A stretch of 26,174 bases of DNA from a virus. The stretch is from IMG/VR virus record IMGVR_UViG_3300017971_000704, positions 1 to 26,174 of that record. One strand, written 5' to 3'. Position numbers and translations under genes: made by a program. The stretch's first letter is position 1; every line of letters begins with the position of its first letter. This document shows positions 2,505 to 25,999 of this stretch, piece after piece. Below the pieces are notes generated by a model that was given only the letters and a program-made list of their open reading frames with translations, ran no database searches and was not told the DNA's origin.

Positions 2505-3536
2505 CTATATTTCCTCTTTGCCAGCCCAGGTACTTCTGCGCTTGGCTTCAGCCACTGTTTGGGGTACTTTTTCCCCTGCTCTTGTTTTCTTCGGTAGTTC
2601 TTTCTTCAATGATGCCTTGATCTTTGCTGCTGTCCCTGCGACAGATCGTGCCAATTTCTTTCTTGATCTCTCTCCTACATTCGCCGGTATCCAGGCGCAC
2701 CGGCAATTGGGATGGCGTGGTATCAATCCCCGTGCCTCTTCTATCGTCATGACAGCACCTTCAAGCTCAGCACATAGAGGACAGACCAAATCATCTCCAG
2801 CCGTACTCCACTCAGCCATCACCGTCAATTCTTCAACACCCAATTCCTCAAAACTATCCAGCTGACCATCTGCATGAGCAGCTATGATCTCAGTCCGGGC
2901 TAGGGTCAAAGCCCGTTGTCTGGTGATCCCAGTGATATTCTTGCTCAGCATCCTGGCTATCGTGGTTGGATTCAGTCCCTGAGCAATCCCATTAGCCAAT
3001 ATCCGGTTCATCTGCTGAGACATCACATCAGTAATACCTTGCAGCTCATTGAATGATCGTGTATAAAGGAATTGGAGCTTGCTCAGTCTCTCTCCCTGAG
3101 CAAATGACGATTCAAGAAACTGACTCATCCTTCCCCGATAGAATTCTGGTGTTTCTGCAAGAGCTTCCTTGTGGGTATCTTTGTATGCTCTGATCATTCC
3201 TTTGCGATAGGCTGATTGAATGTACTTTGCTGTCCATGGTTTTCCAGTTGCATCAGAAACCAGGATGTTTTCATTCACTTGGGTTGTTATCCATCGCCGG
3301 AAAGCCGTTAGTTTCTGTTCATTGGTCATGAACCGCCATGCCTGTCTCTCCGGAAGCTGGTTGGAAACTATTTGCTGAAGGATCAACGGTTGACTTTCAT
3401 CCAATCCCAATACATCCTGCTGGACTATGGCCTTGATAACTAGACTTCTCACTTCATAGAACCTTCTCCGCATCTCTCTTGAAAACTGGTTGCGGAGAGT
3501 GGTTGTACGGGTTGGGTCATACCGAAGAATTGTCAT
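2505..3536 (-). CDS. MuF/SPP1 gp7-like minor head protein
   Basis: A 343-residue protein. The C-terminal half carries the Phage_Mu_F pattern: TLARTEIIAAHADGQ, then AEWSTAGDDLVCPLCAELEG, then IPRHPNCRCAW, the conserved metal-site-like Cys/His cluster of MuF domains. The N-terminal 180 residues are helical and probably contact the portal. Members sit inside the procapsid near the portal and help head assembly or DNA ejection (family knowledge). Its ATG overlaps the stop of the small membrane peptide at 3533-3640, and the portal gene lies just upstream, the usual portal-MuF order. After the MuF motif there is a basic tail rich in Lys. Confidence 0.9.
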   Translation of the reverse strand: MTILRYDPTRTTTLRNQFSREMRRRFYEVRSLVIKAIVQQDVLGLDESQPLILQQIVSNQLPERQAWRFMTNEQKLTAFRRWITTQVNENILVSDATGKPWTAKYIQSAYRKGMIRAYKDTHKEALAETPEFYRGRMSQFLESSFAQGERLSKLQFLYTRSFNELQGITDVMSQQMNRILANGIAQGLNPTTIARMLSKNITGITRQRALTLARTEIIAAHADGQLDSFEELGVEELTVMAEWSTAGDDLVCPLCAELEGAVMTIEEARGLIPRHPNCRCAWIPANVGERSRKKLARSVAGTAAKIKASLKKELPKKTRAGEKVPQTVAEAKRRSTWAGKEEI

Positions 3537-9319: not shown

Positions 9320-9832
9320 ATGAAACCCACCACAAATTGCTTTCCTACACCTGACCGAATCTACCGCAGATATAACAAGATGATCATGAAGATAGCTCAT
9401 ACTATGAGCAAAAAATTCAACAAACCATTTGATGAATTGTATGCAGAAGCAATGTATCACGTGCTGACAAGAATCCAAGAATGGAATCCAAAAAGAGGAG
9501 GCCTCTGTACTCATGTCTACAACTGTGCTTACTTTCATACCTGGAATTATTGTAAACCGGAAAGAGAAATTCCTCATGAATCAGATAACCCAACATTTGT
9601 AGAGCAAGAGACAAAACCCAACTGGTTCAAAAATTTTCTCAATGAGTTGTCAGAAGAAACCCAACAGCTAGTGAAAATCATCTTTGAAGCTCCTGAAGAA
9701 TTATATGAGACCGTCAAACCCAACTGCCCAAAACTCTCCAAGAAAGCCATACGAAATTATATGATTGATGCAATGGATTGGGATGAAATCAGAATTGAAA
9801 AATCCTTTGCAGAGATCAGGCAATGTCTCTAA
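9320..9832 (+). CDS. Sigma-70-family-like protein
   Basis: A 170-residue protein. The start is taken at the ATG at 9320 because GGAGG precedes it by six bases; an in-frame ATG at 9308 is less well placed. Residues about 12-80 follow sigma region 2: YRRYNKMIMKIAHTMSKKF, then DELYAEAMYHVLTRIQEWNP, KRGGLCTHVYNCAYFHTWNY. The C-terminal segment (ELSEETQQLVKIIF...IRNYMIDAMDWDEIRIEKSF) may be a degenerate region 4. It could redirect host RNA polymerase to phage promoters or act as a sigma-like regulator. It overlaps the helicase start by 10 bases. The region 2 match is by eye. Confidence 0.6.
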   Translation: MKPTTNCFPTPDRIYRRYNKMIMKIAHTMSKKFNKPFDELYAEAMYHVLTRIQEWNPKRGGLCTHVYNCAYFHTWNYCKPEREIPHESDNPTFVEQETKPNWFKNFLNELSEETQQLVKIIFEAPEELYETVKPNCPKLSKKAIRNYMIDAMDWDEIRIEKSFAEIRQCL

Positions 9833-12189
9833 AAAAGAGACTCAAAAAAGTCCTGAAAACAAAACCATATCCTTTTCAGCGTAGAGGGATGCTGTTCTTC
9901 AAACAAACAAAAGGACGGGCTCTCCTGGGGGATGATATGGGTCTTGGGAAAACAATTCAAGCGCTAGGTTGGTTAGCTGTTAATCCAAGCAAACGCCCTG
10001 TTATTATTGTTTGTCCAGCCAGCTCCAAATATAATTGGGCTGATCAGATTGAACAGCACACTCATATGAGATATCAAATATTAAACAGCAGAAATCCTGA
10101 ACCTGTTACTGAGCCCATTGTCATCATCAACTATGATATTTTGGCTTATTGGAAAGAAAAACTTCTAGGCATTCAACCCAAAGTATTGATCACAGATGAG
10201 TGTTTTCCTACAGGCACTCCTATAAAAACCCCTTCAGGTTATATTCCTATTGAAAAAATAAAACTAGGAGATTCTGTCCTAAATGCTTTTGGTATAGGAA
10301 TTGTAAAAAAGACAAACAAAAGAATTTCTAACTTAATAGAACTTCATTTAAGTAATGGAACAAAAATACAAACAACCCCTAATCATCCTTTCTTTACATC
10401 TGAAGGATGGATAAAAGCAAAAAATCTTTATCAAAAAATTCTTTTGACTTCTACAGATGTTCTTAATATAATGAATGAAGACACTATATTAAGAGAGAAA
10501 AAGAAAAATGATCAAATGCCAATGGTGCCAAAAGAAATTCAATCCAAAAAGAAAAACACAAAGATTTTGCGGTTGCTCTTGCTCAGCGAAATGGAGAATG
10601 AGTCAACCACATATCAAAAGAAAGATTTACAAAAATCAAACCCACGAAGTCCGTTCTGCTGGTGCAATAAAGATGCACAAAGACAATCCACATATCGCCA
10701 AAGCTTCTTCAAAAAGAATGAAAGAAAACAATCCATCTTCCAAACCAGAAGTGAAAAAAAAGATCAAAGCACATTGGAAAAAATATGGTCATCCTTTATC
10801 AAAAATACAAGCAAAAGGAGGCAATGGAAAAGAATTTTCACAGCCACAAAGAATTTTATGGGCGGCATTAGGCTCTCCATGGAAAATAGAGCATGCAATC
10901 CGAACAAAACAAAAAAGAAAATCTGGCTATCCTACATGTTACAAAGTAGATATAGCTCTTTTAGAAAAAAAGATTTGGATAGAAGTAGACGGTTGGTCAC
11001 ACAAACAGCCACATATAATTGCAAAAGACAAAAAGAAAAAAAATCTATTGATGAAATTAGGGTGGAAAGGATTGAGATTTACAAACCAAGAAATAATGGA
11101 AAACCTTCCCAACACACTGTTTACAATTTACAAGTTTCTGGACATCCATCATACTATGTAAATGATTTTTTAGTTCATAATTGTCATTATGTAAAAAACT
11201 TGAGAGCAAAACGGACAAGAGTCTGCAAAGAACTTGCCAAGAAAAGCAGACACATAATCGCTATGAGTGGCACTCCTATCATCAATAGGCCTGTTGAATT
11301 TTTTCCTATACTCAACATGATATGTCCAAAAGAATTCTCTAGCTTCTGGAAATTTGCTTTCAGATATTGTGATCCAAAAAGAGGATGGGCTGGCAAAGGA
11401 TGGGATTTTAGTGGAGCCAGTCATCTGGATGAATTGAGAGAACGAATCGAGCCTCTATTCCTTCGCAGGATGAAAAAAGAAGTATTAAAACAGCTGCCAG
11501 AAAAACAAAGGACAATAATGTCTGTAGACATAGACAATCAAGCTGAATATCACAAGGCTACAGTCTCTTTCCTTCAATGGTACAAAAACAAAGCAGGAAC
11601 CGTGGCGGCGAAGAGAGCAAAGAAAGCTCAAGCGCTGGTCAAGCTAGGCCAGCTAAAACAATTAACAGCCAAAGGCAAACTGTCTCAAGCATGTGAATGG
11701 ATTGACAATTTTCTTTTCTCCACTGATGAAAAACTAGTGATCTTTGTTTATCATCAAGAAATATTCCAAACATTGATTACACAGTATAAAAGGATAGCTG
11801 CAATTGGAGGGAAATCAGGAAAGAAAAGACAAAACGAAGTGAACAAATTTCAATCTAATGACAAGTGTAGATTGTTCATAGGAACTATCAGAGCAGACAA
11901 GGAATCAATCACTTTAACTGCTGCCCGAAGCGTGCTCTTCATTGAATTAGGATGGACTCCAAGCGAACACAATCAAGCAGAGGATAGAGTGAATCGAATC
12001 GGTCAAAAGTATAATAAAGTAAATGTCTATTATATCCTAGGACGAAATACTGTGGATCAATATGTGTGGGATGTTATTGAAAAAAAGAGAGAAGTGATTG
12101 ACCAAATCATTGATGGTAAATCCCATAGGAAATCATTAGTGGATATTTCAAAAGTAATTCAGCTCATAGAAAAAGGAGAAAAGAATTGA
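9823..12189 (+). CDS. SNF2-family DNA helicase/translocase interrupted by an intein
   Basis: A 788-residue precursor. Extein motifs: Walker A GDDMGLGKT (residues 36-44), Ia IIVCPAS, motif II split as ITDE/CHYVKN, motif III AMSGTPIIN, and C-terminal motifs LFIELGWTPSEHNQAEDRVNRIGQK with YYILGRNTVDQYV. Residues 127-453 are an intein; removal leaves about 461 residues, a normal size for phage SNF2-like helicases. The enzyme is an ATP-driven DNA translocase, probably used in replication or recombination. The intein splits motif II, so the ATPase should be inactive until splicing. Upstream it overlaps the sigma-like gene; downstream it overlaps a small RHH gene. Confidence 0.92.
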   Translation: MSLKKRLKKVLKTKPYPFQRRGMLFFKQTKGRALLGDDMGLGKTIQALGWLAVNPSKRPVIIVCPASSKYNWADQIEQHTHMRYQILNSRNPEPVTEPIVIINYDILAYWKEKLLGIQPKVLITDECFPTGTPIKTPSGYIPIEKIKLGDSVLNAFGIGIVKKTNKRISNLIELHLSNGTKIQTTPNHPFFTSEGWIKAKNLYQKILLTSTDVLNIMNEDTILREKKKNDQMPMVPKEIQSKKKNTKILRLLLLSEMENESTTYQKKDLQKSNPRSPFCWCNKDAQRQSTYRQSFFKKNERKQSIFQTRSEKKDQSTLEKIWSSFIKNTSKRRQWKRIFTATKNFMGGIRLSMENRACNPNKTKKKIWLSYMLQSRYSSFRKKDLDRSRRLVTQTATYNCKRQKEKKSIDEIRVERIEIYKPRNNGKPSQHTVYNLQVSGHPSYYVNDFLVHNCHYVKNLRAKRTRVCKELAKKSRHIIAMSGTPIINRPVEFFPILNMICPKEFSSFWKFAFRYCDPKRGWAGKGWDFSGASHLDELRERIEPLFLRRMKKEVLKQLPEKQRTIMSVDIDNQAEYHKATVSFLQWYKNKAGTVAAKRAKKAQALVKLGQLKQLTAKGKLSQACEWIDNFLFSTDEKLVIFVYHQEIFQTLITQYKRIAAIGGKSGKKRQNEVNKFQSNDKCRLFIGTIRADKESITLTAARSVLFIELGWTPSEHNQAEDRVNRIGQKYNKVNVYYILGRNTVDQYVWDVIEKKREVIDQIIDGKSHRKSLVDISKVIQLIEKGEKN
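10201..11181 (+). mobile_element. Intein in the DEAH-type box of the SNF2 helicase
   Basis: A 327-residue intein. It begins with Cys (CFPTGTPIKTPSGYIPIEKI, block A) and has a block B TPNHPFF segment. It ends with block F VYNLQVSGHPSYYV and block G NDFLVHN before Cys+1. The junctions are DE/C...HN/C, giving a spliced DECH box. G+C is about 30% at the N-end, lower than the flanks. The middle (about 10500-11040) has no recognisable domain in the intein frame, being a Lys/Ser/Gln-rich filler, because the same DNA encodes an endonuclease in another frame (10508-11161). Confidence 0.92.
10508..11161 (+). CDS. Vsr/DUF559-like homing endonuclease, out of frame inside the intein
   Basis: A 217-residue ORF lying wholly inside the intein in the next reading frame. 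Domains in order: an N-terminal zinc finger (CQWCQKKF...FCGCSCSAKW), NUMOD3-like DNA-binding repeats (IKMHKDNPHIAKASSKRMKE, NNPSSKPEVKKKIKAHW), and a PD-(D/E)XK domain of the Vsr/DUF559 type: FSQPQRILWAAL, YKVDIALLEKKIWIEVDGWSH, then LMKLGWKGLRFTNQEIMENL. These are the expected catalytic Asp and Glu/Asp/His positions. It starts at ATG 10508 behind a weak GAGAGA site. It would cut intein-less alleles and promote homing of the intein (family knowledge plus inference). The last 120 bases also encode the intein splicing blocks F and G. Confidence 0.85.
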   Translation: MIKCQWCQKKFNPKRKTQRFCGCSCSAKWRMSQPHIKRKIYKNQTHEVRSAGAIKMHKDNPHIAKASSKRMKENNPSSKPEVKKKIKAHWKKYGHPLSKIQAKGGNGKEFSQPQRILWAALGSPWKIEHAIRTKQKRKSGYPTCYKVDIALLEKKIWIEVDGWSHKQPHIIAKDKKKKNLLMKLGWKGLRFTNQEIMENLPNTLFTIYKFLDIHHTM

Positions 12190-16737: not shown

Positions 16738-17358
16738 ATGGCTGATGAGAGAAAGGTGGTTTTGAGTCTGCTGGAGAAACTGGGCGTGAAGTACACGTCA
16801 AAGATCAGTCTGGAACGGGCGAAGCAGAAGTTGGAGAGGAAGATTGAGAAGGATGGTCTTCCTGAGGATATCGAGATCACGAAGGCTGAAGTCAAGGTTC
16901 TGACAGCAATAGGGTATGAACTTGACTTTGAGGATGAAAGTGCTGATGAGCCTACTGAAGATGATCTTGCCGACATTGAAGAGGAAGAGGAAGAAGAAGA
17001 GGAAGAGGAAGAAGAAGAGGAAGAGGAAGAAGAAGAGGAAGAGAAAACTGCTCCGAAGAAAAACAAGAAGACATCCAAGAGCAAAGGCAAGAAGGAAAAG
17101 AAGGCTCCTGTACAAAAGAAGTCTTCTAAAAAGACAAAGCACCGGGGCGCTGGTGTTATTGCTACGATTGCTGAAATTCTTGCAAGCGCAAAGCGCCCAA
17201 TGTCTCTTGAACAGATTCATGAGAAATTGGTCAAGAAGTTTCCTGACCGGAATGCTGACTCAATGCTTGCCACGATTAGAGTACAGGTTCCTGGTCGTTT
17301 GAACAAAGAACGTGGCATGAAGATCGAAAAAACAGACAAAGGCTACGTGACCAAGTGA
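16738..17358 (+). CDS. Acidic winged-helix (HARE-HTH-like) protein with poly-Glu tract
   Basis: A 206-residue protein with AAGGAG upstream. Residues 1-60 are mixed-charge helical (VVLSLLEKLGVKYTSKISLE). Residues 81-102 are 22 consecutive Glu, then a Lys/Ser-rich basic stretch (about 105-138). The C-terminal domain (GVIATIAEILASAKRPMSLE, QIHEKLVKKFPDRN, TIRVQVPGRL) resembles a HARE-type winged helix as found in the RNA polymerase delta subunit. The acidic-basic-winged helix order suggests a DNA- or polymerase-associated protein, possibly a regulator. It lies just upstream of queC. Confidence 0.6.
   Translation: MADERKVVLSLLEKLGVKYTSKISLERAKQKLERKIEKDGLPEDIEITKAEVKVLTAIGYELDFEDESADEPTEDDLADIEEEEEEEEEEEEEEEEEEEEEEKTAPKKNKKTSKSKGKKEKKAPVQKKSSKKTKHRGAGVIATIAEILASAKRPMSLEQIHEKLVKKFPDRNADSMLATIRVQVPGRLNKERGMKIEKTDKGYVTK
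16978..17043 (+). repeat. Codon-level tandem repeat encoding 22 Glu
   Basis: Sixty-six bases of GAA/GAG codons built on an 18-base unit (GAGGAAGAGGAAGAAGAA) present three times from 16981 with a partial fourth. It is a likely site of length variation by slippage. Confidence 0.85.
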
Positions 17359-17383: not shown

Positions 17384-18052
17384 ATGAAGTCGGTAGTATC
17401 ATTATCAGGTGGGATGGATTCGGCAACAGCTCTTGACTGGGCTATCAATAATAGTGAAGAAGTTATTGCTGTTGGTTTCATCTATGGAAGCAAGCACAAT
17501 CCGTATGAACAGAAATGTGCTGAGCAACTGGCTTATCACTTTGAAGTGGAATTCATACGGATAGACCTGTCAGCAATTGGTAATCATCTCAGATCCAATC
17601 TGCTTAGGAATGGTGGAAATATTCCTGAAGGTCATTATGAATCTGAATCCATGAGACAGACTGTTGTTCCAGGCAGGAATATGATTTTCATTTCAATTCT
17701 TGCAGGGATTGCAGAAAGCCGTGATTTTGATACAGTGGTTCTAGGAATACATGCTGGGGATCATTTTATCTATCCAGATTGTAGACCCAAGTTTTTTCAT
17801 GCGATGGATTGGGCTGTGGAGAAAGGGACTGATGGGAAAGTGTCCCTTCAGGCTCCCTTTCTCCACGGAAACAAAACAACCATACTTCAATATGGTTATG
17901 AATCTTCAAAAGAACCTTTCCCATATCAACTCACTCGTACCTGTTACAAGGATCAGGAGTTGGCGTGTGGAAAATGTGGAGCTTGTCAGGAACGTTTGGA
18001 GGCCTTCAGAAATATTGGTCAGATTGATCCTGTTCAATATGAGGAAGAGTAG
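17384..18052 (+). CDS. queC: 7-cyano-7-deazaguanine (preQ0) synthase
   Basis: A 222-residue enzyme that converts 7-carboxy-7-deazaguanine (CDG) to preQ0 using ATP and ammonia. The PP-loop SLSGGMDSATAL is at residues 6-17, and the C-terminal zinc site has Cys187, Cys195, Cys198 and Cys201 (TCYKD, ACGKCGACQ). Length is that of normal QueC, and there is no fused amidotransferase domain. It is the first gene of a tight queC-queD-queE-folE-dpdA operon. The final DNA base is thus more likely preQ0 than archaeosine-type G+, unless another gene outside the window acts on it. Confidence 0.95.
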   Translation: MKSVVSLSGGMDSATALDWAINNSEEVIAVGFIYGSKHNPYEQKCAEQLAYHFEVEFIRIDLSAIGNHLRSNLLRNGGNIPEGHYESESMRQTVVPGRNMIFISILAGIAESRDFDTVVLGIHAGDHFIYPDCRPKFFHAMDWAVEKGTDGKVSLQAPFLHGNKTTILQYGYESSKEPFPYQLTRTCYKDQELACGKCGACQERLEAFRNIGQIDPVQYEEE

Positions 18053-18418
18053 ATGTATACGATCTCAAAAAGGATTGAGATTGCCGGAAGCCATAGACTG
18101 AATCTGGATTATGATTCTCCCTGTTCAGAACTTCATGGCCATAATTGGAATGTGATTGTAGAGGTACAAGGAGAAAGACTGAATGAGAATGGAATGCTGA
18201 TTGATTTCAAACACATCAAGGAAATTGTCAATCAGTTGGACCATTCTCATATCAATGATCATATTTCCTTAAATCCTACGGCTGAGAACATGGCCTTCTG
18301 GATTGCCTTTGAAATTCAGAAGAGAATTAATGAAGAATGGGAAGGGGATGAAATTCCCTGTATTTCCAAAGTCTCAGTCCAAGAGAGCGAAGGAAATCTG
18401 GCATGCTATATCCCATAA
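18053..18418 (+). CDS. queD: 6-carboxy-5,6,7,8-tetrahydropterin (CPH4) synthase
   Basis: A 121-residue QueD/PTPS-family enzyme that turns dihydroneopterin triphosphate into CPH4. Zinc ligands His14, His28 and His30 (AGSHRL, LHGHNW), catalytic Cys24 (SPCSEL) and the DHSHIND segment are in place. The ATG directly follows the queC stop with GAGGAAGAG as ribosome site. Full length; overlaps queE by 16 bases. Confidence 0.95.
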   Translation: MYTISKRIEIAGSHRLNLDYDSPCSELHGHNWNVIVEVQGERLNENGMLIDFKHIKEIVNQLDHSHINDHISLNPTAENMAFWIAFEIQKRINEEWEGDEIPCISKVSVQESEGNLACYIP

Positions 18419-19023
18419 ACCAAATCTTTTACAGCTTGCAAGGTGAAGGATTTTATGCCGGACGCCCTGCAGTTTTTATTCGATTGTCTGGCTGCAATTT
18501 GAAATGTCCTTGGTGTGATACCAACCATACAAAACATGAAAAGATGTCAGAAGAGCAAATTGTTCAGATGGTAGGAGAACTTTTGCCTCAAAGATGGCCT
18601 CCATTTGTTCTGATTGTTATCACAGGAGGAGAACCAACTTTATACGATCTTAATCCTTTATTGACAGAACTCACATTGATGCTTTCACCTAATGAAATCG
18701 CCATAGAGACCAACGGATACAATCTGAAAAGTATCCCACGTCTTAGCAACATCTGGGTGACAGTCTCACCAAAAATAATGGTGGAAGATTGTACAGCATT
18801 CTTTGATGATAAAGAGTGGTCAGGTGATGAATTGAAGATTGTTCTTGAGCCAGATATTGACGTTGAACTAATAAGGAAATTGCCCTTACGTCTACATACC
18901 AGATTTAATCATTTCTACATCCAGCCTTGCAGTGAAGACTTCGAGTCTGCTGTTGAATTTGTAAAGGAGAATCCATTGTGGATGCTGTCAGTACAGATAC
19001 ACAAGCTGATAAATATTTCCTGA
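18403..19023 (+). CDS. queE: 7-carboxy-7-deazaguanine (CDG) synthase, radical SAM
   Basis: A 206-residue radical SAM enzyme that makes CDG from CPH4. The cluster motif is C31-x3-C35-x2-C38 (GCNLKCPWCD), preceded by FYSLQGEGFYAGRPAVFIR and followed by ITGGEPTLYDL (SAM-binding GGE motif). Slightly shorter than many QueE. The start overlaps queD, and its end overlaps the next gene by 46 bases. Confidence 0.95.
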   Translation: MLYPINQIFYSLQGEGFYAGRPAVFIRLSGCNLKCPWCDTNHTKHEKMSEEQIVQMVGELLPQRWPPFVLIVITGGEPTLYDLNPLLTELTLMLSPNEIAIETNGYNLKSIPRLSNIWVTVSPKIMVEDCTAFFDDKEWSGDELKIVLEPDIDVELIRKLPLRLHTRFNHFYIQPCSEDFESAVEFVKENPLWMLSVQIHKLINIS

Positions 19024-20762
19024 GTTGGGATGATGTTTCTCTCAGAGCCGTCAATCTGGCCACTCAGATTAGAGAGGAATTGAATCTACCACCAGAATGC
19101 TACAAAGTGATAAGTATCTATGGTGTTCCTCGTGGTGGAATATTTCCAGCCTTACTGCTGCAGAAACATCTTCATGCAAACAATATTCTTGCTGACAAAC
19201 CGGAGGAGGCCGATATCTTTGTGGATGATATCATTGATTCCGGAGCTACGAGAGACAGGTACAAAAGGGATTTCCCAGACATTCCTTTCATTGCTTTGTA
19301 TGACAAGACAAAGGGAGAAGTTCCAGGCTGGTTGGTTTTTCCATGGGAAGCTATGTGTGAAGAGACCGGCCCACAGGAAAATATTGTGCGTATGATTGAA
19401 TATATTGGAGAAGACATACACAGAGAGGGATTGATAGAGACTCCTAATCGCGTTATCAAATCGTGGGAAACCTTGTATGGTGGTTATCACGTTGATCCCA
19501 AATCTGTTCTCAAGATGTTTGAGGACGATTCAAGTGATGAGATTGTTTTGCTGAAAAACATGGAATTTTTTAGCACGTGTGAACACCACATGCTTCCATT
19601 CTTCGGCAAGGCTCATATAGCATACATCCCAAATGGAAGAGTTGTAGGAATCAGTAAACTAGCTAGAGTGCTTGAAGTTTTTGCGCGAAGGCTTCAGATT
19701 CAGGAGAGGCTTTGTCAACAGATTACATCATTGCTTGATGAGGAATTGAAACCATTAGGTTCTGCCTGTATCTTGGAAGCCCAACACTTTTGTCTTGCTA
19801 AAGGAACTAAAATACAATTGGCTTATCTTGATAGAAATATTTTTCCTGATGGTGTTCCGATAGAAACTCTTGTTGGAAAACAAAATCTTCCTATTTATAG
19901 TTATGATAAAAATACAGAAAAAATTGTAATTGGAAATGCATCTAAAATATGGAGATCAGGAAGAAAAAAAGTATATAAAGTAACATTTGAATGGTTTTCA
20001 AAAAATCAATATAAAAAGAAAAAAATGAATGGGTCTATTAAAGTAACGGAAGATCATCCTTTTATGTTGCGTCACAAACTTCATAATCGTTATAATAATA
20101 AACACAGAAAATATAAAAATGGAGATTATTTGACAATTAAAGATGGGCTTTCTGTAGGTGATAGTCTGATGCCTTTTTCGTGCTATGGAGAAGAATACAA
20201 AACTTTATCCTTAAATAATGGGGACTATGTACATGAACATAGATTTTTAGCAGAAAATAAAATTGGAAGGAAATTAAAAACTTCTGAGGCTGTTCATCAT
20301 AAAAATGGAAATACCTTAGATAATAGCTTAAATAATTTAATTATCTTAAAGAGAGGAGAACATTCAAAAAAACACTTTGAAGGGAAAAAAAATGAGAATA
20401 AAAGCCATCCTGCTCATAACAAAAAAATTAGAAATCCATTAACATGTTTAGGATGTGGAAAAACATTTTTTGTTAAGTATGCCTATTTAGAAAAAACACA
20501 AAAGTTTTGTTCTCAAAAATGCTATCTTAAAAATGAAGGTAACCATAAAATAATAAAAATTGAAGAACTTGGTATAGAAGAAGTATATGATATTGAAGTA
20601 AATAAATTCAATAATTTTGCGGCAGAAGGTATTATTGTTCATAATTGTATGACTTCCAGGGGAGTTCAGAAGCAAAATTCTATCATGACCACATCCAGCC
20701 TGACTGGGGTATTCAGAGAGAAAGATGCTTCACGGTCTGAATTGTTCCAAATGATTAAGTAG
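18978..20762 (+). CDS. folE: Gpt-like phosphoribosyltransferase fused to GTP cyclohydrolase I, with intein
   Basis: A 594-residue precursor. Residues 1-135 are a purine phosphoribosyltransferase: WDDVSLRAVNLA, YGVPRGGIFPALL, PRPP motif ADIFVDDIIDSGAT (79-92), and PGWLVFPWE. The order resembles E. coli Gpt (WD...RA, SRGG, VIDDLVDTGGT, WIEQPWD). From about 140 it is GTP cyclohydrolase I: HREGLIETPNRVIKSWETL, zinc ligands Cys201 and His204 (TCEHHMLPFFG), VVGISKLARVLEVFARRLQ, and EAQHF/CMTSRGVQKQ. Residues 272-556 are an intein placed directly before the third zinc ligand. The spliced enzyme has about 309 residues. FolE supplies dihydroneopterin triphosphate for QueD. The start overlaps queE by 46 bases, with AAAGGAGAA upstream. 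Confidence 0.92.
   Translation: MDAVSTDTQADKYFLSWDDVSLRAVNLATQIREELNLPPECYKVISIYGVPRGGIFPALLLQKHLHANNILADKPEEADIFVDDIIDSGATRDRYKRDFPDIPFIALYDKTKGEVPGWLVFPWEAMCEETGPQENIVRMIEYIGEDIHREGLIETPNRVIKSWETLYGGYHVDPKSVLKMFEDDSSDEIVLLKNMEFFSTCEHHMLPFFGKAHIAYIPNGRVVGISKLARVLEVFARRLQIQERLCQQITSLLDEELKPLGSACILEAQHFCLAKGTKIQLAYLDRNIFPDGVPIETLVGKQNLPIYSYDKNTEKIVIGNASKIWRSGRKKVYKVTFEWFSKNQYKKKKMNGSIKVTEDHPFMLRHKLHNRYNNKHRKYKNGDYLTIKDGLSVGDSLMPFSCYGEEYKTLSLNNGDYVHEHRFLAENKIGRKLKTSEAVHHKNGNTLDNSLNNLIILKRGEHSKKHFEGKKNENKSHPAHNKKIRNPLTCLGCGKTFFVKYAYLEKTQKFCSQKCYLKNEGNHKIIKIEELGIEEVYDIEVNKFNNFAAEGIIVHNCMTSRGVQKQNSIMTTSSLTGVFREKDASRSELFQMIK
19791..20645 (+). mobile_element. Intein with HNH homing endonuclease in FolE
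   Basis: A 285-residue intein starting CLAKGTKIQLAYL and ending YDIEVNKFNNFAAEGIIVHN before Cys+1 (HF/C...HN/C). A block B TEDHPF segment is present. In the middle is an in-frame HNH domain with EAVHHKNGNTLDNSLNNLI and EHSKKH (His440-His441), then a zinc finger (CLGCGKTFF...KFCSQKCY). G+C is near 25% against about 43% in the flanking FolE coding DNA, consistent with recent arrival. It splits the enzyme immediately before the catalytic zinc Cys, so unspliced FolE should be inactive. Confidence 0.93.
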
Positions 20763-20769
20763 GAATATC

Positions 20770-21729
20770 ATGAGCATCAAGCTGTTTCTTGATAGTGGAG
20801 CCTTTGGTATCTATAAGAGATTATCAAAGGGAAGCATGGATGGATCGGCTATGTCTACTCTCAAGAGTCGTTCACGGGATGATTATTCTTACGTTTGCTC
20901 AGACGAATACAAAACATATCGAAGGGAATACGTTCGCTTTCTGAAAAAGCATGCCAAGCATTTTGATGTTTATGCAAATCTTGACGTGATTGGGAATGCT
21001 GAGCTTACCTACAAGAATCAGAAATGGTTTGAGAAACGGGGATTCAAACCATGTCCGGTCTGGCATATTGATTCTGATGTGAAATGGCTTCAGAGATATA
21101 TTGATGAAGGATATGACTACATTTGTATTGGAGCGATGGTTGGAGTTTCTTCTGTAATTTTACGACAGCTTTTAGATATGGTATGGTCAGAGATTCTTAC
21201 TGATAACAAAGGAATACCAAAGATAAAAGTACATGGATTTGGAATGACCAGCTTCAGTCTCATGAAAAGATATCCTTGGTATTCTGTGGACTCCACCTCT
21301 TGGGTGATAAGTCCAGGGTTCGGTTCCATTCTCTACCCGAAGAAAGGAAAGACAGAGGGATACGATTGGGGTTCTATTGAGAGCATTACCGTCTCAAACG
21401 TTGGGTTTAAGAAAGACCCTGGTTCCAATACCCACTTCAGGAACAAGCCTTCCTACTTAAGAAGGTATATTCTTGAATACTTGGAGAGCGCCGGCATTCC
21501 CTTTGGGGAAAGTTCATACAAAAAGGTCAATCCAAACTATGTCTTGAAGAAGGACGGTGAGAACTGGCTTGTTAAAGGAGAAGAGATTGAAGTAGTCGAA
21601 TCTCCAGGTGTATCAAACACTAGAATGAGAAGAGTTGATGCTTGCCTGTATGCCTTCACTGAGTTTGAGGCCCATCTGCCGAGGTGGCCATGGGCTCTAA
21701 AACTCAAGAAGAGAAAGACGTTACTATGA
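20770..21729 (+). CDS. dpdA: DpdA, TGT-like DNA 7-deazaguanine transglycosylase
   Basis: A 319-residue TIM-barrel protein. Visible segments are LFLDSGAFGIYKR (Asp8), DVYANLDVIGNAELTYKNQK, CPVWHIDSDVKWLQRYID, KVHGFGMTSFSLM and YPWYSVDSTSWV, the conserved order of phage DpdA proteins. It lacks the C-terminal zinc Cys cluster of tRNA TGTs. DpdA replaces guanine in phage DNA with preQ0 or a derivative, releasing free guanine (family knowledge). It follows the PRT-FolE gene by a few bases and overlaps the first mini-gene (ATGA). The location and the complete preQ0 pathway make the call strong. Confidence 0.92.
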   Translation: MSIKLFLDSGAFGIYKRLSKGSMDGSAMSTLKSRSRDDYSYVCSDEYKTYRREYVRFLKKHAKHFDVYANLDVIGNAELTYKNQKWFEKRGFKPCPVWHIDSDVKWLQRYIDEGYDYICIGAMVGVSSVILRQLLDMVWSEILTDNKGIPKIKVHGFGMTSFSLMKRYPWYSVDSTSWVISPGFGSILYPKKGKTEGYDWGSIESITVSNVGFKKDPGSNTHFRNKPSYLRRYILEYLESAGIPFGESSYKKVNPNYVLKKDGENWLVKGEEIEVVESPGVSNTRMRRVDACLYAFTEFEAHLPRWPWALKLKKRKTLL

Positions 21730-21938
21730 TCATTTATCTTGCAGGTAACATCAGAAGAAAAAAATCAGTGGTGTTTATATGTGAACCAAGACTTAAACAT
21801 GTTTTGTTTAGCTTTGAATACTTAGAAATGAGGAAAGGATTTTCAGAAACAAAAGAGAGATTCGAGGCAATGGTTGAAAAGAAAAAACAAAAAACAGAAA
21901 GAAGACAGGATGATCATCTATCTGGCTGGTCTCATTAG
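21726..21938 (+). CDS. IYLAG mini-protein, copy 1
   Basis: A 70-residue protein beginning MIIYLAGNIRRKKS, with RLKHVLFSFEYLEMRKGFSE and a Lys/Gln-rich tail. Its ATG overlaps the dpdA stop. It shares MIIYLAG..., RL.HVLFSF.Y..MRK.F with copy 2, so the two arose by duplication. The opening motif resembles the first strand and glycine turn of small nucleotide-binding or nucleoside deoxyribosyltransferase-like proteins, but the protein is too short for a full fold of that kind. Confidence 0.65.
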   Translation: MIIYLAGNIRRKKSVVFICEPRLKHVLFSFEYLEMRKGFSETKERFEAMVEKKKQKTERRQDDHLSGWSH

Positions 21939-22086
21939 CAAAAGAACTTCAAAGGAGTTCACTCTTCGTGAGTCGAGGCTTCTCCATGTCTTGTTCAGTT
22001 TTGACTACATAGATATGAGAAAGAAGTTCTTTGAAGAGATGGAAATGAAGAGACAGAAACAGAATAGAAGGAAGAGAGTAAGGTGA
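21910..22086 (+). CDS. IYLAG mini-protein, copy 2
   Basis: A 58-residue protein from ATG 21910 (MIIYLAGLISKRTSKEF, RLLHVLFSFDYIDMRKKFFE). The start is set here because it aligns with copy 1, and AGACAGG precedes it. It overlaps copy 1 by 29 bases in another frame. Function unknown; see copy 1. Confidence 0.65.
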   Translation: MIIYLAGLISKRTSKEFTLRESRLLHVLFSFDYIDMRKKFFEEMEMKRQKQNRRKRVR

Positions 22087-22196
22087 TAATCTACTTGGTC
22101 GGAAGCAATAGTATTCAGCTGAAATACAGGAAGAGATATCGCCGCTTTGTTCACGTATGGAAGTATAAGCATAAAAGAACTCGACAGAATGATTAA
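22083..22196 (+). CDS. IYLAG-like mini-protein, copy 3 (short, GTG start)
   Basis: GTG at 22083 overlaps the stop of copy 2 (GTGA) and encodes 37 residues starting MIIYLVGSNSIQLKYRKRY and ending RFVHVWKYKHKRTRQND. The first six residues and the basic HVW...K segment match the pattern of copies 1 and 2, so this is a third, shortened and diverged member. It ends just before the ribosome site of the clamp gene. Confidence 0.5.
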   Translation: MIIYLVGSNSIQLKYRKRYRRFVHVWKYKHKRTRQND

Positions 22197-22208: not shown

Positions 22209-23219
22209 ATGGCTGTCAAGAAAAGAGCGGAAGTCATCACAGTCCTAAATGGCCTGAAGTGTATCCTGACGCCAAATGAAGTACTGGAACAATCCAACGC
22301 CTTTGTTTTCAAAGACAAGAAAATCTTCACTTTCAATGGGGAGATATTTGCTTCAGCTGACTATGATATAGGTATCAAACAACCATTCTCAATTGTAGGA
22401 GCAGATTTCCTGAAGCTACTTGAAAAATTCCCGGATGATCAGATAGGTATTGACCTGGATGGAAATGAGCTGGTCCTGACAGGGAAAAGAAAGAAAGCCG
22501 GTATCACTATCTTCAAGGAAATTCTGCTTCCGTATACTGAAGTCCCTGAACCTGGAAAGCTGTTCAAAGTATCGGAAAATTTCTTCCACTATCTTTTCCA
22601 ATGCGCTCAGATATGCGGGAGAGATCACACCAATCCCAAAACCACCCATGTCCATGTACGAAAGAATTTTATTGAAGCTACGGACCGATACAGAGTCTTT
22701 CGTGTTGACGTGACTACAAAATTTATCAAACGGGAAATAATGATCCCATCTGATTCCATTCTTCTGCTTGGAAACAAGACAATAAAGAAAGCTGGAATAA
22801 AAGATAACTGGCTTCATTTATTATCAGAAAATGGGATAAGATATTCACTCCGTTGTTCGGAGATAGAATATTTTGATGATGAAATGCTGCATTCAATACT
22901 CAATATTGATGGTGTTTCAGGTTCTTTCCCCAAGACAATTTCTGATACGATAGAACGAGCCCAGGTAGTTCAGGATCAGTTAGGGGAAGCTCATATCACA
23001 CTGAAAGAAAATGCTCTGAAGATCAGAACAGAAAAGGATGGAGTTTGGTATGAAGAAAAGAGAAGCATCAAGTATTCCGGCAAGAGCATATCATTCACAG
23101 TCAGTCTGAATTTTCTCAAAGAGATTTTATCCAAAACGAAAAAGGTTATCTTTGGAGAATCAAGCATTAAGATTGAAAAGGACAATTTTCATTTTGTCAT
23201 TTGTGTAGAGAAAAAATAA
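22209..23219 (+). CDS. DnaN-like sliding clamp
   Basis: A 336-residue protein with the layout of a bacterial beta clamp: three similar domains. Recognisable segments are HVHVRKNFIEATDRYRVFRV (compare the ATDGHRL segment of DnaN), IMIPSDSILLLG, and the C-terminal VSLNFLKEILSKTKKVIFGE with ...FHFVICVEKK. AAGGAG precedes the ATG. It would tether the phage polymerase encoded downstream. It is a little shorter than DnaN (about 366). Its stop overlaps the next start (TAATG). Confidence 0.78.
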   Translation: MAVKKRAEVITVLNGLKCILTPNEVLEQSNAFVFKDKKIFTFNGEIFASADYDIGIKQPFSIVGADFLKLLEKFPDDQIGIDLDGNELVLTGKRKKAGITIFKEILLPYTEVPEPGKLFKVSENFFHYLFQCAQICGRDHTNPKTTHVHVRKNFIEATDRYRVFRVDVTTKFIKREIMIPSDSILLLGNKTIKKAGIKDNWLHLLSENGIRYSLRCSEIEYFDDEMLHSILNIDGVSGSFPKTISDTIERAQVVQDQLGEAHITLKENALKIRTEKDGVWYEEKRSIKYSGKSISFTVSLNFLKEILSKTKKVIFGESSIKIEKDNFHFVICVEKK

Positions 23220-24424
23220 TGCGTGGATTCTTCAGCGGTTCGGAATTGAAATCAGAAAAGATAACACCAAAGATTTCCCGGTGTGGCAAATGTGGACTGT
23301 ATAAAAAATGCATTAGTCCCAAGATGCAGACAACAGGTCTGGGAAGACGTAAAACTCTCTTTGTCGCTGAAGCTCCAGGAGAACAGGAAGATAGACAGGG
23401 AGTTCAGCTCATAGGGGATGCTGGTCAGCTACTGAGAGATGTGTTGGATGATATTGATATTGATTTGGATGATTGTTGGAAAACGAATACTGTCATCTGC
23501 AGACCTCCCAACAATAAGATTGAAAAACACATGATTCAATGTTGTCGTCCCAACCTATTGAAAACCATCAAACGGTTGAGACCGGCTGTGATTATAGCAC
23601 TGGGAAAATCAGCTCTGGAGAGTCTGTTGTTTCAGGAATGGAAAAAAGATATTGGCCCATTGACAAAATGGATTGGATGGACTATTCCCAGCCCACAGTA
23701 CAAGGCTTGGCTCTGTCCTACCTATCATCCCTCCTATATCTTGAGAATGGGTGAGGATGAGCTATTGGTGAAGATATTCAGACAGCATCTGAAGAAAGCA
23801 ATCAGTCTTGAGAATAAGAAAGTAAAGAAATATTCACTTGAAAATCTGAAGAGTAAGGTGGAAGTGATCCTTGATCCAGATCACGCAAGAACAAGGATGG
23901 CAAACCTCAGCACCAAGGAAGGAGTACTGGCTTTTGATTATGAGACTAATGGCTTGAAACCTGACAAGAAAGGACATAAGATCATCTCTGTCTCTTTTTG
24001 TCTAAATGGAAAGGATACGTTTGCTTGTGGAATAGATGAAGATCACCGAACAAAGAGTGTTCTATCTGATATATTGAAAAGCAAACACCTGAAGAAGGTG
24101 GCAAGCAATATGAAGTTTGAGGAGAGGTGGACCAGAGCAATACTTGGTCATGGTGTAAAAAGCTGGTATTGGGATACGATGCTTGCTGCTCATTGTCTTG
24201 ACAATCGTTCGGGAATTTCTTCAATCAAATTCCAAGCCTATATTCATCTTGGATTATCGGATTACGATTCTCATATTGCTCCATACCTCTATGGCAAGAA
24301 TTCAAATGGATTCAACCGGATTGATCAGATTGATCCGAAAGAGCTGTTAATTTATAATGGTATAGATAGTTTGACAGAATACATGATTATGAAAAGACAA
24401 AGAAAGATATTCAATGGGAAATGA
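23219..24424 (+). CDS. Family 4 UDG-like domain fused to DEDDy 3'-5' exonuclease
   Basis: A 401-residue protein; ATG 23219 overlaps the clamp stop. Residues 20-200 resemble family 4 uracil-DNA glycosylase: C22-x2-C25, LFVAEAPGEQEDRQG, LIGDAGQLL, ICRPPNNK (Cys94), CCRPNLL (Cys108/109), and TYHPSYILRM, with four Cys placed to hold an iron-sulfur cluster. Residues 235-400 are a DEDDy exonuclease: AFDYETNG (D240, E242), SNMKFEERW, and YNGIDSLTEY (Y379, D383), as in the proofreading domain of DNA polymerase I. It is probably the proofreading half of the phage polymerase, whose polymerase half is at 24608-25999. Whether the UDG part is active cannot be told. Confidence 0.85.
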   Translation: MRGFFSGSELKSEKITPKISRCGKCGLYKKCISPKMQTTGLGRRKTLFVAEAPGEQEDRQGVQLIGDAGQLLRDVLDDIDIDLDDCWKTNTVICRPPNNKIEKHMIQCCRPNLLKTIKRLRPAVIIALGKSALESLLFQEWKKDIGPLTKWIGWTIPSPQYKAWLCPTYHPSYILRMGEDELLVKIFRQHLKKAISLENKKVKKYSLENLKSKVEVILDPDHARTRMANLSTKEGVLAFDYETNGLKPDKKGHKIISVSFCLNGKDTFACGIDEDHRTKSVLSDILKSKHLKKVASNMKFEERWTRAILGHGVKSWYWDTMLAAHCLDNRSGISSIKFQAYIHLGLSDYDSHIAPYLYGKNSNGFNRIDQIDPKELLIYNGIDSLTEYMIMKRQRKIFNGK

Positions 24425-24614
24425 CAAGAAAATGCCTTCAAGAAAAGAACTTGAAGAGACTTTGAGACAACTGCAAGGAAGCCAAGAGTTGGTTGAAGAT
24501 ATGATCAAACCTATGGCCAAATTGCTGCATGCTAAATATGAAGCACTCATAGACACTGGATTTACAAAAGAACAAGCATTCACAATCATACTTCATAAAG
24601 GTATGGAATGGTGA
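24414..24614 (+). CDS. Small helical protein between the exonuclease and polymerase genes
   Basis: A 66-residue protein overlapping both neighbours (11 and 7 bases). It reads KELEETLRQLQGSQELVEDM then KYEALIDTGFTKEQAFTIIL, an all-helical pattern with a GFTKEQA segment common in small phage proteins of unknown function. It sits exactly where a polymerase I would join its exonuclease and polymerase domains. It might bridge the two subunits; that is speculation. Confidence 0.65.
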   Translation: MGNDKKMPSRKELEETLRQLQGSQELVEDMIKPMAKLLHAKYEALIDTGFTKEQAFTIILHKGMEW

Positions 24615-25999
24615 TCCCATACAAGAGATCAGCTTACAAACTCCTACATGATGGGGCAATAGCCCTGGCTGAGATTGAAGGAAATGGTATCAAGATTGAT
24701 ACTGTATATTTGAAAAAGACCATACGAAAAACTGAAAAGAGAATTCAACGGTTGCAAACTGAATTGGAAAAAGGAAAGGTTGCCCGGACATGGAAGAAAG
24801 TGTTTGGAAACAAAACCAATTTCAATTCCAACGATCAACTGGGAAAGATATTGTTTGAGCATATGGAAATTCCCTGTCCTGAGAGAACGAAGACAGGGAA
24901 GTACAGAACAAACGAAAAAACCCTTATGACTGTAGACCATCCATTCGTAGAAAAATATCTTCAGATCAAAAAACTACAGAAGGCATTGACAACCTATTTA
25001 AGGGGAATTCAGAAGGAAGTAGTGGACGGTTTTTTGCATCCTTTTTTTAATCTTCACATCACTCGCACGTACCGTTCATCTTCTGATTCCCCTAATTTTC
25101 AAAACATACCTGTTCGTGATAAAGAGCTTGGCAATCTGATCAGAAAAGCATTTATTGCCAGAGAAGGTCATCAGCTGGTGGAAATTGATTATAGCGGCAT
25201 TGAGGTGGCAATAGCCGCGGCCTATCACAAAGATCCAAGGATGATAGACTACATCGGCAATCCCAAATTGGATTTGCACCGGGACATGGCTATAGAATGC
25301 TACAAACTCAAGTCCGGGCAGGTAACAAAGGATATCAGATTCTACGGAAAAAACTGTTTCGTATTCCCTCAATTCTACGGTTCTATGTACACAGACTGCG
25401 CCAGAGCACTGTGGGGCGCTATAGACACAGCAAAACTATGTACAAAGGATGAAATGCCCTTAAAACGCCATTTACAAAGCCAGGGGATACGGGAATTAGG
25501 TGATTGCAATCCCCAGGAAAGCCCACACAAAGGTTCATTTGAATATCATATCCAACAGGTTGAAAAGGCTTTCTGGGGAAAACGATTCAAAGTCTATGCT
25601 CAATGGAAAAAGAAATGGTATCAGAAATATGTGAGCAGAGGATGGATGCTGACTAAGACTGGATTTATTTGCCAGGGCTTTATGAAGCGCAATGAGGTTA
25701 TCAATTATCCGGTGCAGGGTTCAGCCTTTCATTGCCTGCTCTGGTCATTGACAAGGCTTGTGCGTGAATTGAAAAAACATAAGATGAAAACACTGATTGT
25801 GGGACAGATTCATGACAGTATTCTGGCTGATGTTCCAGCAAAGGAGCTGGATGATTTTTTGATGTTGGCCAATACTGTTATGACAACTCAACTAACTAAT
25901 GAATGGAAATGGATCAATGTTCCACTTGAAGTTGAAGCTGAAGTATGCCCTATTGGAGGAAGTTGGTCCGAGAAAGAGGAGAAGGAGATTCCAAAATGA
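24608..25999 (+). CDS. Family A DNA polymerase, polymerase domain only
   Basis: A 463-residue polymerase with the family A motifs: an N-terminal thumb segment (LAEIEGNGIKID), HITRTYRSSSDSPNFQNIPV, motif A VEIDYSGIEVAIAAAY (Asp194), motif B RFYGKNCFVFPQFYG (Lys248), and motif C GQIHDSIL (Asp403). No 5'-3' or 3'-5' exonuclease domain is present in the same chain; proofreading is supplied by the separate gene at 23219. Motif A has Gly and motif C has Ser where Gln and Glu are usual (SQIE, HDE). The start overlaps the small upstream gene. Confidence 0.92.
   Translation: MVIPYKRSAYKLLHDGAIALAEIEGNGIKIDTVYLKKTIRKTEKRIQRLQTELEKGKVARTWKKVFGNKTNFNSNDQLGKILFEHMEIPCPERTKTGKYRTNEKTLMTVDHPFVEKYLQIKKLQKALTTYLRGIQKEVVDGFLHPFFNLHITRTYRSSSDSPNFQNIPVRDKELGNLIRKAFIAREGHQLVEIDYSGIEVAIAAAYHKDPRMIDYIGNPKLDLHRDMAIECYKLKSGQVTKDIRFYGKNCFVFPQFYGSMYTDCARALWGAIDTAKLCTKDEMPLKRHLQSQGIRELGDCNPQESPHKGSFEYHIQQVEKAFWGKRFKVYAQWKKKWYQKYVSRGWMLTKTGFICQGFMKRNEVINYPVQGSAFHCLLWSLTRLVRELKKHKMKTLIVGQIHDSILADVPAKELDDFLMLANTVMTTQLTNEWKWINVPLEVEAEVCPIGGSWSEKEEKEIPK

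Follow-up and report, generated by a model that had tools for sequence, protein, structure and literature searches.

We analyzed a linear virus record of 26,174 bases (IMG/VR record IMGVR_UViG_3300017971_000704, positions 1 to 26,174; this whole stretch is called the window below), which is probably a fragment, and focused on a plus-strand operon for 7-deazaguanine DNA modification. On the basis of gene identities, structure models and comparison with related loci, this operon probably encodes a split-barrel DNA transglycosylase, in which the core specified by dpdA (20770-21729) would be completed in trans by small module proteins encoded directly behind it. QueC, QueD, QueE and an intein-spliced fusion of a Gpt-like phosphoribosyltransferase with FolE would convert GTP to preQ0. 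The dpdA product would supply strands 3-8 of the barrel, including the catalytic aspartates, and the small proteins, the first of them translated from a start codon overlapping the dpdA stop, would supply strands 1-2. Core and module together would form a complete barrel of the tRNA-guanine transglycosylase (TGT) type that replaces guanine in DNA by preQ0, and the Gpt-like domain could recycle the guanine freed by each exchange through GMP to GTP.

The DpdA core and the small genes behind it

An earlier note on this DNA, made from the sequence, had described a complete preQ0 pathway with a DpdA that inserts the base into DNA. The dpdA gene was assigned by its match to phrog_887 (E = 4e-47), the Pfam DpdA model giving only E = 0.017, under its cut-off, and the protein is 35% identical to 9g DpdA. 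Five residues (D8, D72, H99, H155 and D174) were invariant among 40 sequences, so that the loss of catalytic residues, named in the earlier note as a finding that would speak against its prediction, was checked and not seen. Both catalytic aspartates were present (D8 in DSGAF and D174 in the DSTSW motif), and the histidine of KVHGFG (H155) corresponds by count to His196 of 9g DpdA, a residue that marks DpdA1 and is absent in DpdA2 (PMC6884629). Thus, the enzyme has intact catalytic residues, but its open reading frame (ORF) alone encodes an incomplete barrel.

The window protein begins at MSIKLFLDSGAF, that is, with the catalytic strand carrying DSGAF; the DpdAs of 9g, VpKK5 and AL-2 have about 60-70 residues ahead of this motif. 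Its AlphaFold2 model (mean predicted local distance difference test score (pLDDT) 92.5) contained six barrel strands, with strand 8 near D174 being short. A relative with a fused N-terminal module (L075:10289-11194; L-numbers are labels of the related viral or metagenomic loci compared with the window) was modeled at pLDDT 91.8 with eight strands, the first two of which (residues 2-5 and 26-29) lay inside the module. When compared with the PDB by VIA, both models had the bacterial DNA preQ0 insertase 7ui4 as their top match (Z = 12.9 for the core, with TGTs tied at about 12.5; Z = 18.8 for the fused protein, again tied with TGTs). Both 7ui4 and the TGTs differ from the window enzyme in that their barrel is one chain. 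Alignments to TGT started at residue 40 for the fused model and, in many rows, at residue 97 for the core, and the core alignment superposed D8 on TGT Asp102. The six-strand model together with the late start of the TGT alignment therefore indicates that the window dpdA has no barrel strands 1 and 2; judged by these models, the ORF is without the first quarter of the barrel. A search of PDB sequences with the DpdA profile returned no real match, and Foldseek's own list for the core model did not show TGT, which the second look with VIA did show. In three other loci, two DpdA core genes were found side by side (L004:6945-8892, L020:1935-3805 and L075:10277-12216).

The feature continues beyond dpdA. 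The earlier note had placed its genes correctly and had ended the feature at 21729; small plus-strand ORFs extend it to 22196. The first free-standing strand 1-2 module (copy 1, 21726-21938) starts across the dpdA stop codon (ATGA), and the second (copy 2, 21910-22086) overlaps the end of the first. Both read MIIYLAG...LFSFxY, resembling the fused N-terminal module of 9g-type DpdA, and both were detected at E = 4.2e-5 by a hidden Markov model (HMM) of the modules of other phages that had been rebuilt without the sequences of the window and of L002 and L003, its closest relatives. Copy 2 was identical to L002:7885-8061 at 40 of 58 positions, with synonymous sites saturated. A third copy with a GTG start (22083-22196), recognized by comparing frames with the intact L002:8058-8231, is frameshifted relative to it and is either degenerate or affected by a sequence error. 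We also considered the idea that such ORFs share just a Rossmann-like start (MKIYLAG), and rejected it, as the similarity also includes the strand-2 residues LLSYY. Neither Pfam nor PHROGs matched any of ten free modules, including two from the window, and no match was found in 50,697 annotated phage records when two free-module types were used as queries, other types not being searched there.

Distribution of free modules and competing explanations

An HMM trained on 16 fused modules recovered dozens of free small ORFs in the fetched loci, with E-values down to 1e-8 (best shuffled ORF, 0.04). A second, more divergent module type (MIxYYSG...MLTFW) was likewise recovered from fused forms. As an independent test, new viral contigs were obtained by a DpdA-alignment scan and examined with HMMs trained on the first set only. 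In this independent set, 129 of 3,529 small ORFs, compared with zero shuffled ORFs, scored at E < 0.01, and all 134 ORFs at E < 0.05 were on the same strand as dpdA. Free modules were near 28 of the 32 DpdAs that lack a fused one, and a 29th was found by eye. It should be noted that these contigs include near-duplicates, so that the counts are not of independent lineages, and that module classes and thresholds were chosen by the analyst. The module start overlapped or abutted the dpdA stop in 37 of 43 inspected contigs, which had been chosen mostly for having a module. The ten first-set loci in which dpdA was not detected, some of them short, yielded no module.

The arrangement recurred in bacterial and archaeal metagenome bins containing such a DpdA. 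One of them, a binned Aenigmatarchaeota contig (L191:4983-6144), carries a core together with a free-module pair, so it may be that archaeal viruses are reached or that the bin is contaminated. Free-standing modules were present in most of the related metagenomic phage loci, with arrays of up to about seven (L010). Two of them are seemingly fused in tandem ahead of the core in L042 and L009. In L123, L126 and L131 (positions about 3300-3500), the module that immediately precedes the DpdA core is divided over two frames at a run of GA dinucleotides that differs in length, which could reflect slippage, a programmed frameshift or decay.

Pairs of modules showed nonsynonymous divergence (dN) of 0.13-0.35 with synonymous sites saturated or above 2.5; the free modules are under purifying selection. 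Fused and free forms show the same conserved residues in strand 1 (A and G) and strand 2 (L, S and Y/F), and the intervening loop is variable. A conserved serine was present in 15 of 16 fused and 40 of 41 free modules, whereas an arginine before strand 2 was found in 37 of 41 free but only 6 of 16 fused ones. The corresponding region of TGT contributes to the dimer interface of that enzyme.

A module that completes the barrel in trans is the simplest explanation for the window, and we counted in its favor the better match to 7ui4 once the module is present (Z rising from 12.9 to 18.8), the wide co-occurrence, the overlap with the dpdA stop and the selection on the modules. Two results weigh against it: 24 of the 26 DpdAs with a fused module in the independent set were also accompanied by free modules, and a few short DpdAs had no recognizable module close by. 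Because free modules also stand beside fused DpdAs, barrel completion cannot be their sole role there; the most interesting possibility is that they act as alternative subunits with another target preference. A tentative and rather doubtful extension would be that a large branch of uncultivated phages has a plug-in DpdA, in which one core combines with interchangeable barrel-completing subunits that differ mainly in the strand 1-2 loop, giving each phage several transglycosylases with differing DNA target sequence or base preference. The company of free and fused modules would also suit a short DpdA that is self-sufficient, either as an open barrel or through a strand swap in a dimer, with the small ORFs being regulators or alternative partners derived from the N-terminal module. 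The core alone models confidently, and the arginine enriched in free modules hints at a role of their own. We nevertheless consider such self-sufficiency unlikely, since TGT-fold barrels are made up of all eight strands and the core is without two, and since a module was found close to nearly all short DpdAs examined, in many cases overlapping the stop codon.

That the small ORFs are functionless, decaying duplicates of the dpdA 5' end appears extremely improbable. The frameshift in the third window copy and the broken module frames upstream of dpdA in L123, L126 and L131 are what decay would produce, but the low dN against saturated synonymous sites, the recurrence of module subtypes in distant phages and the retention of the dpdA stop overlap in divergent contigs all argue for function. 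A transglycosylase that targets tRNA, with the operon feeding a queuosine pathway of the host and not phage DNA modification, is very unlikely as well. The TGT fold itself would allow it, and such a role has been suggested for phages with preQ0 genes but without DpdA; against this stand the sequence kinship to 9g DpdA, whose family has been shown to put 7-deazaguanines into DNA (PMC6884629), and the best fold match to a DNA preQ0 insertase, though TGTs tie with it. The split barrel thus remains the reading that we prefer.

preQ0 synthesis and the intein in Gpt-FolE

All five genes named in the earlier note were located by Pfam or PHROG matches, and lie on the same strand with adjacent ORFs overlapping or a few bases apart, as one operon of queC, queD, queE, folE and dpdA. 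queC (17384-18052, 222 aa; preQ0 synthase) matched PF06508 (E = 4e-56) and phrog_1550, and contains an SGGMDS ATP loop and the cysteine cluster CGKCGAC. It is followed by queD (18053-18418, 121 aa; 6-carboxytetrahydropterin synthase; PF01242, E = 1e-29) and by queE (18403-19023; 7-carboxy-7-deazaguanine synthase), which matched Radical_SAM and a QueE-like PHROG (E = 2e-35) and has the radical SAM motif CNLKCPWC. The gene order is conserved in L002 and L003, with 58-77% identity per protein. With these motifs intact, the proposed route from GTP to preQ0 is supported, and the encoded set (FolE, QueD, QueE and QueC together with a DpdA) is that of the published group 2 phages, which have preQ0 genes and DpdA but no amidotransferase and for which preQ0 or 7-amido-7-deazaguanine (ADG) in DNA has been predicted (PMC6884629).

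QueC of the window is not fused to an amidotransferase, and neither QueF over cut-off nor GATase_6 was found in the window, as the earlier note had stated, or in five related virus records (29-68 kb, completeness uncertain), ArcS and other families not being searched. Weak QueF matches mapped onto the FolE gene. Since QueF and amidotransferase were not found in relatives of 44-68 kb either, 2'-deoxy-preQ0 is the best prediction for the base in the phage DNA from the gene content, in agreement with what had been proposed before, and other enzymes could alter the product. It is possible, if somewhat unlikely, that a phage gene outside the contig or a host enzyme converts it to ADG, archaeosine, preQ1 or some other derivative: the contig is likely to be incomplete and the group 2 prediction itself names preQ0 or ADG (PMC6884629), but neither QueF over cut-off nor GATase_6 occurs in related contigs of 44, 45, 61 and 68 kb (completeness uncertain).

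The earlier picture was incomplete with respect to FolE as well as DpdA, having overlooked both an intein and a phosphoribosyltransferase fusion in addition to the absent N-terminal barrel strands. The folE ORF (18978-20762; PF01227, E = 6e-64) has a GTG start, at which its relatives begin with the matching residue. Residues 10-114 matched E. coli xanthine-guanine phosphoribosyltransferase (XGPRT, E = 8e-4), and the match to GTP cyclohydrolase I began at residue 136. The Gpt-like domain has a putative phosphoribosyltransferase activity, supported by this homology and by the phosphoribosyl pyrophosphate-binding motif VDDIIDSGAT, which is retained in 64 of 67 metagenomic relatives. Such fusions are common in these phages: proteins of VpKK5, NP1 and PaMx25 (Vibrio and Pseudomonas phages), annotated as GTP cyclohydrolase, are homologous to the window protein across both domains (47-54% identity) but have no intein.

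The intein (19791-20645, 285 aa; Intein_splicing, E = 4e-15; HNH_3, E = 4e-7) is inserted between EAQHF and CMTSRG. It has Cys1, a block B TEDH fitting TxxH, the C-terminal HN (ending in VHN), a +1 cysteine nucleophile at 20646 and an HNH domain. Its GC content is 27%, compared with 42% for the flanking exteins. Spliced FolE aligned through the insertion point with L002 and the other fetched relatives (closest 70% identity), none of which carries the intein. The +1 cysteine is a zinc ligand of the enzyme (Cys181 in E. coli FolE). As the intein directly precedes this residue, an unspliced precursor is expected to lack activity; splicing itself is predicted from the motifs, and FolE would be able to work only after excision. 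The splicing blocks and HNH domain resemble those of other HNH inteins (for example, DnaB and DnaX), which differ in that the window intein is placed in FolE at the zinc cysteine. No close relative of this intein was found in viral contigs, annotated phages giving only distant partial matches, and no FolE intein was evident in the parts available to us of papers pairing inteins with GTP cyclohydrolase or 7-deazaguanine. A second intein of 327 aa (window 10201-11181, above the Pfam intein cut-off) lies within a SNF2-like helicase ORF (9823-12189), between DE and CHYVKN in the Walker B region. Elsewhere, the DpdA of L057:8301-10376 has a large intein-like insert right before its catalytic SVDSTSW motif.

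Genomic setting and relation to known phage systems

The replication genes of the window (helicase, primase, DnaB-like helicase and DNA polymerase A parts) are on the plus strand, those for head packaging are on the minus strand, and the virus is therefore taken to be a tailed phage. DNA polymerase A is in two parts, one bearing the exonuclease (23201-24424) and the other the polymerase (24608-25999); in L002 the two parts are separated by an additional ORF of 109 aa. Upstream of queC, the ORF at 16738-17358 contains a run of about 25 glutamates, and an acidic relative occupies the same site in L002.

preQ0 operons with a DpdA for DNA modification are an already known kind of system. The operons of 9g (DpdA1) and VpKK5 (Queuovirinae) resemble that of the window in having a homologous DpdA with the conserved His196 and both catalytic aspartates, and FolE, QueD, QueC, a sliding clamp and DNA polymerase as neighbors. 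They differ in that the strand 1-2 module is inside their DpdA chain and that no intein interrupts FolE; no free modules were found near DpdA in the 9g and VpKK5 operons. In addition, 9g QueC is longer and has an amidotransferase domain (PMC6884629). The group 2 phages CAjan (E. coli) and Rosebush (Mycobacterium) share preQ0 genes and DpdA without an amidotransferase, but a split DpdA is not mentioned in that paper (PMC6884629). No split DpdA surfaced in the open-access literature, to which our coverage was confined, and its novelty is therefore provisional.

An intein at the FolE zinc site would make preQ0 synthesis dependent on protein splicing, and the fusion of Gpt with FolE hints at a loop that recycles guanine in step with base exchange, one guanine being freed per modified position. 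The free modules point to a small-protein family absent from Pfam and PHROGs, whose role can be tested, and a short dpdA ORF might show no activity when expressed by itself. If true, a TIM barrel whose first two strands come from small genes that are separate and multiplied in tandem would represent a novel architecture among base-exchange enzymes, and a split DpdA could account for differences among phage DpdAs in the site and amount of guanine replaced.
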